Notes under the pieces: generated by a model
The model's database searches: none
What the model was told of the DNA's origin: nothing
The model's input: only the letters and a program-made list of their open reading frames with translations
Position numbers and translations under genes: made by a program
From: Gemmatimonadota bacterium
Lineage (GTDB): Bacteria; Gemmatimonadota; Gemmatimonadetes; Longimicrobiales; Gaopeijiaceae
DNA length: 64,000 nt
NCBI GenBank assembly: GCA_016209885.1
Contig: JACQVF010000030.1
Location: 1-64,000 of the forward strand
Direction of reading: 5' to 3'
Part shown: piece by piece, positions 58,069-61,852 of the stretch
Numbering within the stretch: position 1 is the first letter of the stretch
Layout: every line of letters begins with the position of its first letter

Positions 58069-58488
58069 ATGAGTCGATCGCTGAACAAGGTGATGCTGAT
58101 CGGAAACGTAGGCGCGGAACCGGAGATCCGCATGACCCCAAGCGGCACCAAGGTCGCCAAGGTCTCCCTGGCCACGAACCGGACCTTCACCGACCGGGCG
58201 GGCCAGCAACAGGAACGGACGGACTGGCATCGCCTTACGTTCTTCGGCAAGCTCTCCGACATCGTGGAGCAGTGGGTGCACAAGGGCCACCGGCTCTACG
58301 TCGAAGGTCGGATCGAGTACTCCCAAACCACCGATGACTCCGGGAGCCCTCGCTACTGGACCGACGTCGTCGTCACCGAGATGGTCATGCTGGGAACCGG
58401 CGCGGGACCCGAGGCGGCTGCCCCGGAGCCGTCGCGCCTCGCTGCCAACGAGGCCCTCACCGACGTGGATGACGACCTTCCGTTCTAG
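58069..58488 (+). CDS. ssb: single-stranded DNA-binding protein
   Basis: A 139-residue protein; the ATG at 58069 follows AGGGAGGA at 58053-58060. The OB fold is typical: LNKVMLIGNVGAEPEIRMTP, KVAKVSLATNRTF, ERTDWHRLTFFGKLSDIVEQ, VHKGHRLYVEGRIEYSQTTD. A short linker leads to the acidic tip DVDDDLPF that recruits replication and repair proteins. It forms a tetramer on single-stranded DNA. Upstream it is divergent from the enoyl-CoA hydratase gene. Confidence 0.96.
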   Translation: MSRSLNKVMLIGNVGAEPEIRMTPSGTKVAKVSLATNRTFTDRAGQQQERTDWHRLTFFGKLSDIVEQWVHKGHRLYVEGRIEYSQTTDDSGSPRYWTDVVVTEMVMLGTGAGPEAAAPEPSRLAANEALTDVDDDLPF

Positions 58489-58677: not shown

Positions 58678-58704
58678 CAAAAGCGACCGCGGACGCGGTC
58701 GCTT
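58678..58704 (-). terminator. intrinsic terminator for the leftward unknown-gene operon
   Basis: A perfect 10-bp GC-rich stem (58681-58690 with 58695-58704, loop GGAC) is followed on the minus strand by TTTTGTCGTT. It lies 36 bp beyond the stop of the gene at 58740, between converging genes. On the plus strand no T-tract follows, so it mainly ends the leftward transcript. Confidence 0.8.
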
Positions 58705-58739
58705 ACCAGCCTCTCCGTACCACCCAGGCCCGCCCCGCG

Positions 58740-59090
58740 CTACTCCACCGCCTCCACCCGAATCTCCTCTTCCCACAGCCCGAGCAGATACTCGTGGTAC
58801 CGCCCCGGATGCCGACGGTAGTCCTCCACCCACACCTCGAACGGCGGCAGAGCCAGCCGTCGCGTCATCCGCTCCGTCAACAGCCCTACCATCCCACTGA
58901 ACGAAACCTCGCCCTCCTCCCCCGACTCGCGCGCAGCCTCCTGGGCCAGCACGTAGATCTCATCCGGCGAAAGCAGCAGGAAAAGCTCTGCCACCTGCGC
59001 CGAACAGTAGTCGTGATACTTGGCCCGGAGAATCTGCGCGTCCAGCTCCCCAGTCCCTTCCGAATGAGGCCTGCCCCCGGCCTCGCTCAC
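58740..59090 (-). CDS. hypothetical protein, related to the protein at 59824-60417
   Basis: A 116-residue soluble protein starting at GTG. It is helical with a central LRAKYHDYCSAQVAELFLLL stretch and a late RRLALPPFEVWVEDYRRHPG motif. Both line up with RARYEQYRRRQAARLVTLIA and LLPLPPFERWREDLANNP in the larger protein encoded 0.7 kb away, in the same order and spacing, so I infer a shared unnamed domain of about 90 residues. The GTG overlaps a TGA in another frame (GTGA), hinting at a small upstream gene. Function unknown. Confidence 0.65.
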   Translation of the reverse strand: MSEAGGRPHSEGTGELDAQILRAKYHDYCSAQVAELFLLLSPDEIYVLAQEAARESGEEGEVSFSGMVGLLTERMTRRLALPPFEVWVEDYRRHPGRYHEYLLGLWEEEIRVEAVE

Positions 59091-59196
59091 TCCAACACCC
59101 CCAGGTAGAGGCCCACTTCGCCGCCTCGCGCAGCCGCATCACCTCGCGGCTCCGCCCCAGTCGCATCGCCTCTACCTTTACGCCCCACCCTTCCAT
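59087..59196 (-). CDS. possible 36-residue peptide, frame interrupted
   Basis: An ATG at 59196 follows a GGGAGG site with good spacing and encodes MEGWGVKVEAMRLGRSREVM, then RLREA. In this frame it runs on across the next gene start. Shifting one base near 59119-59124 gives EVGLYLGVLE and a stop that overlaps the next GTG, the junction style used by nearly every gene pair here. Either a one-base loss has broken a tiny gene, or the peptide is chance. It has no recognisable family. Confidence 0.3.
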
Positions 59197-59215
59197 GCGT
59201 CAAGCCTCCCGTTCC

Positions 59216-59437
59216 TCAGGTGGCCCGCTCCGGAAACTGCCCGATCCCCTGCCCCCTCACCTCCTCCTCCGACCCCTCCCCCCGCCCACGAAGGTGCCGA
59301 TATATGGAACGACGCGTCAGCCCGTACAACACCACCCGGCTCAGAAACTCCGGGTCCGTGCGCTGCACTTCCTCCGCCTGCGCCGCCAGGTCACGCGGCA
59401 ACCGCACATGAATCTGCACGGAACACGTCTCCCACAT
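59216..59437 (-). CDS. ribbon-helix-helix-like small protein
   Basis: A 73-residue protein from the ATG at 59437, preceded by GGGGGAAGG. The opening strand CSVQIHVRLPRDLAAQAEEV followed by DPEFLSRVVLYGLTRRSIY has the strand-helix-helix pattern of CopG/Arc-type DNA-binding proteins. The tail is acidic (GSEEE). A GTG start at 59524 would add 29 residues. It is the first gene of the leftward set and sits beside an AT-rich region with a perfect palindrome, so autoregulation is plausible. Confidence 0.55.
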   Translation of the reverse strand: MWETCSVQIHVRLPRDLAAQAEEVQRTDPEFLSRVVLYGLTRRSIYRHLRGRGEGSEEEVRGQGIGQFPERAT

Positions 59438-59551
59438 CGCCTTCCCCCAGGGCTCTCGTACTACGAAAAACAGCGAATCCTCCTCACGCCGCCAACCCGG
59501 GCCGCGTCCGCGGCTTCCGGCCACTCGCTATCCTCGGGCGAATGAAGTTGC

Positions 59552-59580
59552 ATGATAGTCCGCGAATTACTTCCGCGCAA
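59552..59580 (-). promoter_or_regulatory. candidate promoter for the ribbon-helix-helix gene
   Basis: On the minus strand TTGCGC (about 59575-59580) is followed after 17 bp by TATCAT (59552-59557), five of six matches to the -10 consensus. Transcription would start near 59545, about 105 bp before the ATG at 59437. Confidence 0.45.
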
Positions 59581-59700
59581 GCCTTTTCTGTAACCTCACA
59601 TGTTTCAAGGGGTTATCTGTAAGTAATTTCAACATAATAACTTACGACTTTCACCCTCCCGTATCCACTTGTTCACAGGGAGGTGAGCCCATGCGTGTTT

Positions 59701-59717
59701 TTCGAAATTATTTCGAA
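59701..59717. promoter_or_regulatory. 17-bp perfect palindrome, candidate operator
   Basis: TTCGAAAT and ATTTCGAA flank a single T. It lies in the AT-rich gap upstream of the ribbon-helix-helix gene, about 120 bp beyond its candidate promoter. The symmetry and setting suggest a dimeric repressor site; the binding protein is not known. Confidence 0.5.
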
Positions 59718-59823
59718 TGATGTGGCGCCGTTGCTGGGATTTGGGAGGGTAGTCGGGGAAAGAGCGCGCGGAGGTGCCGCGGGATTTTTTGGGAATTCTG
59801 GGGAGCGGGCAACGCGTGCGAGA

Positions 59824-60417
59824 TCACGGGAGCACGGAGCGCAGGAAAGCCTCCAGCGTATGCGGTTCGAAGGAGCGGAAGCGCTCGCGGACATCGGCCG
59901 GGGTCGGTTCGCGGAAGATGTCGGCGGTTCGGAGCGAGGCGGGCCGGCCCGGGGAGTGGAAGGCGATGAAGCCTCGCCATCCGTCCTCGTCGGCGTACAC
60001 GTTTAGGGCGGCATGCCAGACGCTTCCCCCGTGGGCGAGGGTACGTGTGTCCGTGAGGGTGGAGCGGCGGTGTGTGCGCGGCCTGGCGCCCCAGGCCTCA
60101 TCTTCGAGGTGGGCGAGCGGGTTGTTGGCCAGATCTTCGCGCCAGCGCTCGAAGGGCGGGAGCGGCAGGAGCTGGAGGCAGAGCTCGACGAGTGCGCGGG
60201 CGGGGTCCTTTGGGTCGAACGCGGCGCGCTGCAGGGCGCGGGCTCGCGCCGTCCGGTAGAGCGGCCGGACTGCGTCCCTCGCGATGAGCGTGACAAGCCG
60301 GGCGGCCTGTCGCCGCCGGTACTGTTCGTAGCGCGCCTTTAGCTGTGCCTCCGTGAGCTCCGGGCGTGGGAGAGAGCCCGGCGCGCGGTGGCCCGTAGCA
60401 TAGTGGGCGCGGTCCAT
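59824..60417 (-). CDS. hypothetical protein, larger member of a local pair
   Basis: A 197-residue protein from the ATG at 60417, preceded by GGGGA. Residues 20-110 (LTEAQLKARYEQYRRRQAAR to LPLPPFERWREDLANNP) align with the small protein at 58740-59090. A C-terminal extension has aromatic strands (SVWHAALNVYADEDGWRGFI) and a helical end (DVRERFRSFEPHTLEAFLRS). No signal peptide or known catalytic motif is present. It begins 47 bp after the 302-residue gene and ends at the AT-rich gap. Confidence 0.65.
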   Translation of the reverse strand: MDRAHYATGHRAPGSLPRPELTEAQLKARYEQYRRRQAARLVTLIARDAVRPLYRTARARALQRAAFDPKDPARALVELCLQLLPLPPFERWREDLANNPLAHLEDEAWGARPRTHRRSTLTDTRTLAHGGSVWHAALNVYADEDGWRGFIAFHSPGRPASLRTADIFREPTPADVRERFRSFEPHTLEAFLRSVLP

Positions 60418-60464
60418 AGGGTCCCCAGGGGTCGTGGTCCAGAGCGTCGTGCGGGCGCCGCGTC

Positions 60465-61373
60465 TCAATGCGCCGTGTGGCTTCCTGCCCACTCGGGGAC
60501 CGGGAGCGCGACGGGCTCGCTCAGCGGCTCGCGCATGCTGAGCTGGGCGAGGGTGCGGCGCACCCCGAACGTTTCGAGCACGTGACGTAGGGCGCGGTAG
60601 CGCTCGGGCTCGAAGCGCGCGTACAGGCGTCCGAACCCGGCGCGGATCTCCTCCATTTCGCGGATCGTCTCCGACAGAGAGAGGGGGAGGGGGAAGCGCA
60701 CCTGGTAGCGCAGCAGGGGATCAGGGTCCTCGGCGTGCGCCCTGCGAATGTCACGAGCGGGGAACGCCGCAAGGAGCGCCTCTTCGAGGATCGGGTGGCC
60801 CGTACGGTGGCCACCCTCGAAGAAGAGCGTGTTCGCGTCGTAGTCGAGGTGGGCGCGCGCCAGGCGCTCCGGCCCCGTGACGATTCGGACCGCCGTTGCC
60901 TCGTGAAGGTCGAGATCACGGGATACGTCCCGGAATCCGATGCGCAGAAGCGTGGGCCGCGCGATTGCACTGAAGCCGGTTCGTCCCAGCACGCTGAGAG
61001 CCAGGCCGAAGCAGTACTGTCCAAGCGGTCCGATCACTTCGCCGCCGCTCGCGAGCCGCGACGTCTGCGGCGTCTCCAGGAGAGAGCGCACGTACCGGAG
61101 CGTCGGATCGTAGACCCAGTCCAGGATCACGAGCTCGGCGCCAAGGTCGAGGCGCTTTACCTGAGCGCTCCCCAGGTCGATCACCTCGGACGACGACGCG
61201 TACTCGCCGTCCAGGACGAGGGCGAGGCCGATGTCCTCGATGCGGCCGCCGGGGAGATCGAGCTCGTGGCGATCCCGATACTGAACGATGGCCCGCGTGA
61301 GCGGCAACTCGCACACGCCGGGGACGTCCGCCATGGCCTCCGGGCGTGGCCTGGGCTGCACGGCGACTCTCAT
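60465..61373 (-). CDS. hypothetical protein
   Basis: A 302-residue protein; GGGAGGA precedes the ATG. The N-terminal part has strands (IEDIGLALVLDGEYASSSEV, DLGAELVILDWVYDP), the middle is Gly-rich (ASGGEVIGPLGQYCFGLALS), and the C-terminal third is helical and charged (SLSETIREMEEIRAGFGRLY). I recognise no family, signal peptide or catalytic motif. It leads the leftward group of unknown genes ending at the terminator near 58.7 kb. Confidence 0.7.
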   Translation of the reverse strand: MRVAVQPRPRPEAMADVPGVCELPLTRAIVQYRDRHELDLPGGRIEDIGLALVLDGEYASSSEVIDLGSAQVKRLDLGAELVILDWVYDPTLRYVRSLLETPQTSRLASGGEVIGPLGQYCFGLALSVLGRTGFSAIARPTLLRIGFRDVSRDLDLHEATAVRIVTGPERLARAHLDYDANTLFFEGGHRTGHPILEEALLAAFPARDIRRAHAEDPDPLLRYQVRFPLPLSLSETIREMEEIRAGFGRLYARFEPERYRALRHVLETFGVRRTLAQLSMREPLSEPVALPVPEWAGSHTAH

Positions 61374-61594: not shown

Positions 61595-61648
61595 ATGCAG
61601 CTTCGGTCGTGGCCGTGGATCGTGAACCCCGCGGGAAAGGTGCTCGTA

Positions 61649-61852
61649 GTGGAGGTCATCATTGGAGACAACGAGAGTCTGGAGCGGGCGCTTCGGCGCT
61701 TCAAGCGGAAGGTACAGCGGTCGGGGCTCTACTCGGAGCTTCGCAAGCGCCGGTACTACGAAAAGCCGAGTCAGCAGCGGAAGCGGAAGCGCGAGGCCGC
61801 GATCCGTCGCGAGCGCCGTCGGCGTAGACGCCAGCATCACGTGCCGATCTGA
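61649..61852 (+). CDS. rpsU: 30S ribosomal protein S21
   Basis: A 67-residue protein from the GTG at 61649, preceded by GGGAAAGG. An ATG at 61595 directly after the -10 box is in frame but would lie at or upstream of the transcription start. The sequence is classic S21: [38 protein letters not shown] and a very basic tail. S21 binds the small subunit near the mRNA anti-Shine-Dalgarno helix. It has its own promoter and terminator. Confidence 0.95.

Follow-up and report, generated by a model that had tools for sequence, protein, structure and literature searches.

Several described systems resemble parts of the locus reported here. In the ExsA-ExsD-ExsC-ExsE partner switch of Pseudomonas, activity is set among a regulator, a helical partner and a chaperone-like antagonist. 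Type II toxin-antitoxin modules with ribbon-helix-helix antitoxins usually place the antitoxin gene ahead of a gene for a small protein, with an operator palindrome, and further points of comparison are offered by the ribbon-helix-helix (Arc/MetJ/CopG) regulators and by YbjN, AmyR, DR1245 and the class I type III secretion chaperones. We describe a cluster of four genes, termed A, RHH, B and D302, at positions 58740-61373 of a 64-kb stretch of contig JACQVF010000030.1 (hereafter the window) from a Gemmatimonadota bacterium whose genome is a 4.15-Mb draft in 115 contigs. The locus is real and conserved, and it is undescribed in the libraries and papers that we searched. None of the four proteins matched Pfam, NCBIfam, PHROGs or PADLOC at E 1, family profiles gave nothing convincing against PDB sequences, and no paper describing the locus was found in the literature; a preliminary description of this DNA, in which no member was assigned to a known family, therefore holds for all the libraries searched. 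We tentatively read the cluster as a lineage-specific chromosomal regulatory module of Gemmatimonadota, of the partner-switch type.

All four genes lie on the reverse strand between ssb and rpsU. In the direction of transcription, D302 (60465-61373, 302 residues; an alternative start at 61334 is possible) is directly upstream of B (59824-60417, 197 residues), and a control region of about 390 nt separates this pair from RHH (59216-59437, 73 residues) and A (58740-59090, 116 residues). An intrinsic terminator-like hairpin on the same strand (58681-58704; arms AAGCGACCGCG and CGCGGTCGCTT, 10-bp stem, 4-nt loop, TTTTG tail) closes gene A. The preliminary description had counted five leftward frames ending at a clean terminator. 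Four frames and the hairpin after A stand; the candidate for the fifth (58960-59196) overlaps A in another frame, no relatives of it were found, and it was rejected. Orthologs of all four genes have high third-position GC. The operon-like arrangement proposed earlier is seen in the four co-directional genes, whose order is kept in relatives; transcription is probably in two units, D302-B and RHH-A. Of the 48 loci with both D302 and B, 43 have B starting no more than 26 nt after D302 ends or overlapping it by 1 or 4 nt (the stop/start overlap being present in 21 of the 48), so that the two are probably co-translated. RHH and A are spaced by a mean of 128 nt (range 0-284 nt), and B and RHH by 394 +/- 45 nt (52 loci); this last region is conserved and carries the RHH-A promoter.

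The conserved core of the locus is the RHH-A gene pair. Sampling of 298 genomes of the phylum gave a single RHH match in each of 102; the window's own family accounts for 74 of the sampled genomes, of which 71 have RHH (counted from the table). Within the 298-genome sample, A lies beside RHH on the same strand, within about 0.6 kb, except where the two are on different contigs (read from the tables). Of 98 relatives, 77 gave a match to A. Both genes are held by 77 of 80 named loci, and the other three begin within about 220 nt of A. All but two of these 80 loci are titled Gemmatimonadota, under old and new names and as orders and candidate genera; the remaining titles are one uncultured bacterium and one Gammaproteobacteria. 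The latter record (L064, JAHEKL010000246.1) carries the Gemmatimonadota locus in unchanged synteny and is probably a mislabelled or mixed bin.

The family-wide gene order is recF, enoyl-CoA hydratase, ssb, A, RHH, B, D302, C, rpsU, where C, present in many relatives, encodes about 225 residues and is divergently oriented between D302 and rpsU. In 58 loci the sequence extends to ssb on one side and rpsU on the other; 32 of these have C-D302-B-RHH-A, 14 D302-B-RHH-A, 10 C-D302-RHH-A and 2 D302-RHH-A. In the window, the space between D302 and rpsU is too short to hold C, and a C profile run on the window's genome matches only A and B. The flanks common to relatives are recF, enoyl-CoA hydratase, ssb (58069-58488 in the window, forward strand, convergent with A), rpsU (encoding S21; 61595-61852, forward strand) and 3-hydroxyacyl-CoA dehydrogenase. 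Ratios of nonsynonymous to synonymous substitution (dN/dS) of close pairs range from 0.02 to 0.6 and are mostly below 0.2, which indicates purifying selection.

With one copy per genome and fixed synteny, the cluster is a single-copy, vertically inherited, syntenic chromosomal locus of Gemmatimonadota and not a mobile island. A viral or mobile origin was rejected, no relatives of B being present in viral contigs, and the earlier suggestion of a regulated accessory system does not hold in so far as accessory implies a patchy mobile island. Two rival explanations fail because of this distribution. In the first, RHH and A would be a type II toxin-antitoxin pair (RHH the antitoxin, A the toxin) with B, D302 and C as passengers. 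The order of the genes, a ribbon-helix-helix-like gene and then a small one with a palindrome upstream, is that of such modules, but the cluster belongs to the core genome, is neither patchy, mobile nor multi-copy, and has well-separated genes, RHH and A being non-overlapping with their mean gap of 128 nt; there is no match to a toxin or defence family, and the domain of A is reused as an adaptor in B, C and methyltransferase-like fusions. We consider this explanation very unlikely. The second, an anti-phage or other defence island, would suit an uncharacterised cluster of small proteins, but it is hardly credible given the lack of PADLOC or PHROGs matches at E 1, the absence of B relatives from viral contigs and the core-genome distribution.

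Two domains relate the proteins A, B and C. A consists of one helical domain of about 90 residues (LRAKYxDYCSAQVA...LPPFExWxxDY...GLW), with C29, S30, L81, P82 and Y91 invariant. B carries an A-like helical domain at residues 23-110 and a C-terminal beta domain at about 118-197 (WxAxL..WRGFIxF..RTAxIFRE..FLRSxLP). The pattern common to A and B is LRxKYxxYCSAQ/RRRQA...LPPFExWxxDY, and the domain is wholly helical in the AlphaFold model of B (predicted local distance difference test score, pLDDT, 88). That A and B share an unnamed domain of about 90 residues had been proposed in the preliminary description, together with a comparison of profiles and neighbourhoods by which to check it. The window proteins align in BLASTP at E 2e-4 (27 of 88 positions identical) and their helical domains in profile-profile hhalign at E 3.6e-15 (probability 98.5), and the genes are neighbours in other genomes, so that the proposal stands on both counts. 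The helical domains of A, B and C align in hhalign at E 1e-12 to 2e-15. C is made of both B domains in swapped order, with the beta domain N-terminal and the helical domain C-terminal, and the beta domains of B and C match at E 8e-15. In Palauibacter-type loci (L118, L126, L129, L131, L132 and L136), a separate beta-domain gene directly after A is the split counterpart of B. Since they are fused in B and C and adjacent in the Palauibacter-type loci, the helical and beta domains are tied together.

The same domains recur outside the cluster. Families that lack RHH have a protein of 259-286 residues that begins with an A-like domain and otherwise resembles S-adenosylmethionine-dependent methyltransferases (Methyltransf_25 at E 2.8e-5 in one member, under the curated cut-off). 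Fusions of this kind were observed at L326, L327, L328, L330 and L332, beside mutM-like or RlmI-like genes. Stand-alone beta-domain proteins of about 95 residues, with no Pfam match, were observed at L339, L340 and L342-L345, several of them adjoining a mechanosensitive-channel-like or ABC transporter gene. Because they recur in fusions, split genes and stand-alone proteins, we regard the helical and beta domains as adaptors used in several proteins. At L051 (7558-7866), a remnant of B that includes the end of the beta domain (FIGSEKAPLIAFLCSTLP) lies between D302 and RHH, which suggests decay of B in some lineages. D302 and B have nothing in common. A KorA-like match of C (E 0.065) and PUR-alpha and WGR matches of B (E 0.15-0.7) were too weak and were not used.

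The RHH protein was earlier put forward as a ribbon-helix-helix candidate, and the comparison with known members is weak yet in register. Its sequence pattern suggests a strand (VQLxVRLP), a helix, a DPEFLSRV turn and a second helix, and it resembles the Arc/MetJ/CopG regulators in length, in this strand pattern and in the order of the helices. An hhalign comparison of the RHH profile with RHH_1 proteins of relatives places the strand and first helix in register with a score of 20.1; 30 column-shuffled controls reached 14.0 at most, and A 15.1. It differs from those regulators in its lack of a Pfam match, in having DPEFLSRV at the turn in place of G-R-S-R-S and in its fixed pairing with A. From these sequence features, RHH is likely to bind DNA.

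D302 is probably YbjN- or secretion-chaperone-like, as weakly suggested by its predicted structure. In the AlphaFold model (pLDDT 86.5), residues 139-254, in the C-terminal half, are ordered a-bbb-a-bb-a, the order expected of a compact YbjN/class I type III secretion chaperone-like domain and equal to that given by the published residue ranges of AmyR (PMC5398634). Foldseek matches to these families were weak. D302 differs from them: it is double their length, has an additional beta domain at the N-terminus and an invariant C-terminal histidine, and shows no sequence match. Matches to ARPC2 of the Arp2/3 complex (best Foldseek E 0.019) were too weak and were not used, and a comparison with BFVD gave nothing significant. 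The YbjN-like protein DR1245 of Deinococcus binds the SSB-like protein DdrB (PMC3575483), a precedent that is noteworthy given the ssb gene beside the cluster, although it proves nothing.

In the direction of the genes, the control region consists of a terminator-like TTTTTTGnAAAAAA element after B (in many relatives), an upstream element of consensus GGAACAnnTGGnTT, a palindrome, a TTGCG-N17-TAnnnT promoter and a 5' leader. In the window, the upstream element reads TGAACAAGTGGATA (59662-59675, reverse strand) and is conserved 31-34 nt before the palindrome. The 25-bp palindrome itself, TAAGTAATTTCAACATAATAACTTA (59620-59644; consensus TAAGTCGTTGTnnnACAACGACTTA), lies upstream of the RHH-A promoter, and its inverted repeat GTAAGTAATT/AATAACTTAC spans 59619-59645. 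The promoter has a -35-like hexamer TTGCGC (59575-59580, reverse strand), of which TTGCG is kept at the same place in relatives, and at 17 nt from it a -10-like hexamer TATCAT (59552-59557, reverse strand), which a strict sigma-70 scan did not list. The operator-like palindrome noticed in the preliminary description proved to be a real inverted repeat, conserved upstream of RHH. Against a weight matrix built without the window site it scores 28.2, the next best site in the 64 kb scoring 3.8. When the 420 nt upstream of RHH are scanned, nearly every locus has a palindrome of this class as its top match, and most of these sites score 15-22 of 22, compared with 11-14 in shuffles. Paired positions of the arms vary without covariation beyond expectation, which argues for a DNA dimer site and not an RNA hairpin. 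A structured RNA between B and RHH, prompted by the constant spacing of about 390 nt, was also rejected, with no Rfam match and no covariation at the palindrome. A second, weaker copy of the palindrome (59591-59615) lies 29 bp from the first; such a tandem occurs also in more distant families and not in most of the window's family, and a regular second palindrome at 29 bp, present in the window and in a few loci, was discarded as not general. A second inverted repeat, TTCGAAAT/ATTTCGAA (59701-59717), is not conserved in the locus alignment.

The preliminary description implied that RHH binds this palindrome and so autoregulates its own cluster. The presence of a palindrome-class DNA site upstream of RHH in nearly all loci would suit such autoregulation, but a sequence model finds the motif at equal strength and frequency in 58 genomes that lack RHH (best E 6e-6), where it occurs near parA and parB (L306-L308, L310, L323), gyrB (L313), pilin (L311) and flagellar or sigma-factor genes (L316, L320). 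We therefore hold autoregulation to be improbable. Within the window's family, the palindrome with at most 3 mismatches occurs 50 times in 58 genomes, against 2 for a reversed control (counted from the table). Sites other than those at RHH lie upstream of type IV pilin genes (L250, L262, L267), before gyrA (L252, L254), near parA/mnmG (L246, L256, L263) and between fructose-bisphosphatase-like and large surface-protein-like genes (L243, L247, L251), with gene names that we read from the sequences. Because the motif is also found in relatives without RHH and near other genes, its reader is probably some class-wide regulator and not RHH alone, and RHH-A appears to be one target of that regulator. 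The sites of consensus TAAGTCGTTGTnnnACAACGACTTA at L243-L271 and L306-L325, together with that of the window, apparently represent an undescribed class-wide regulon across Gemmatimonadota.

What the sequences show is the gene arrangement, the relations of the domains, the conservation and the motif; the interactions of the partner-switch reading that we favour are inferred. The RHH-like protein would bind DNA as a dimer, and A, as its obligatory partner, would use the helical domain to bind RHH or to act on its output side. With their own copies of that domain, B and C would join the RHH-A complex as extra subunits or compete in it, with the beta domain bringing the input. D302, as a chaperone-like protein, may hold or sequester a product of the cluster, most likely B, or another client, and the resulting partner switch would set RHH activity, while transcription of RHH-A would be governed by the class-wide regulator reading the palindrome. 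The cluster would then act as do the Exs proteins, with a regulator, a helical partner and a chaperone-like antagonist in one cluster. The window cluster has no secretion system and no sequence relation to those proteins, and the likeness is one of analogy only.

Several results weigh against this reading. No Pfam ribbon-helix-helix family matched any of 27 RHH members, RHH matched no PDB chain, and its alignment with RHH_1 had an hhalign probability of only 21%. The model of B gave no fold match to E 1e-3 (best 0.15), and in Foldseek D302 reached E 0.054 with AmyR, 0.094 with YbjN and ExsC and 0.24 with SigE, none below 1e-3. In 12 of 58 loci D302 is retained although no B can be detected, so that B cannot be its sole client. 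The occurrence of the palindrome in genomes without RHH counts against it as well, and so do two features of the chromosomal setting: the DNA-maintenance neighbourhood of the locus is only suggestive, and an origin-proximal location was rejected, the distance to dnaA being 270-705 kb in the window's family (five single-contig genomes). Elsewhere dnaA lies at 708 kb in one genome of another family and at 10-30 kb in two of a third.

This neighbourhood is the basis of the leading rival, in which the cluster is a DNA-maintenance module: RHH-A would bind chromosomal DNA or SSB, D302 would act like DR1245, and the role would be in repair or partition and not in gene regulation. The locus is fixed beside ssb and recF in the window's family, where gyrB is a further neighbour, and ligD, ku, parA and lexA are neighbours in other families; the fold hint for D302 and the DR1245-DdrB precedent (PMC3575483) point the same way. 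However, the evidence is one of neighbourhood, A is convergent with ssb and outside the ssb operon, Palauibacter-type loci are instead near short-chain-dehydrogenase-like (FabI-type) and glycosyltransferase-like genes, and the locus is far from dnaA in the window's family. We judge this rival unlikely. Outside the window's family, at L055, L124 and L333-L336, RHH-A was observed in the vicinity of ligD, often accompanied by ku, or of parA and lexA. For the partner-switch module that we prefer, DNA maintenance is a first guess at the regulated process, because of the recurring neighbours ssb, recF and gyrB, ligD and ku, and parA and lexA.

Regulation has hardly been studied in Gemmatimonadota, which abound in soil and water, and the locus represents a conserved and testable entry point. 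It combines a protein that probably binds DNA, occurs in single copy and has a fixed partner with two new domains that Pfam lacks and that are shuffled between several proteins. Through the palindromic motif it is linked, across the class, to parA and to genes for gyrase, pilin and flagella. It is a speculative and rather doubtful proposal that the helical A and beta domains constitute a Gemmatimonadota-specific adaptor toolkit which, with RHH and D302, would form a regulatory complex of a new kind, associated with the chromosome and coupled to SSB and to DNA repair or partition. The interest of the locus lies mainly in its being a new protein toolkit of an understudied phylum.

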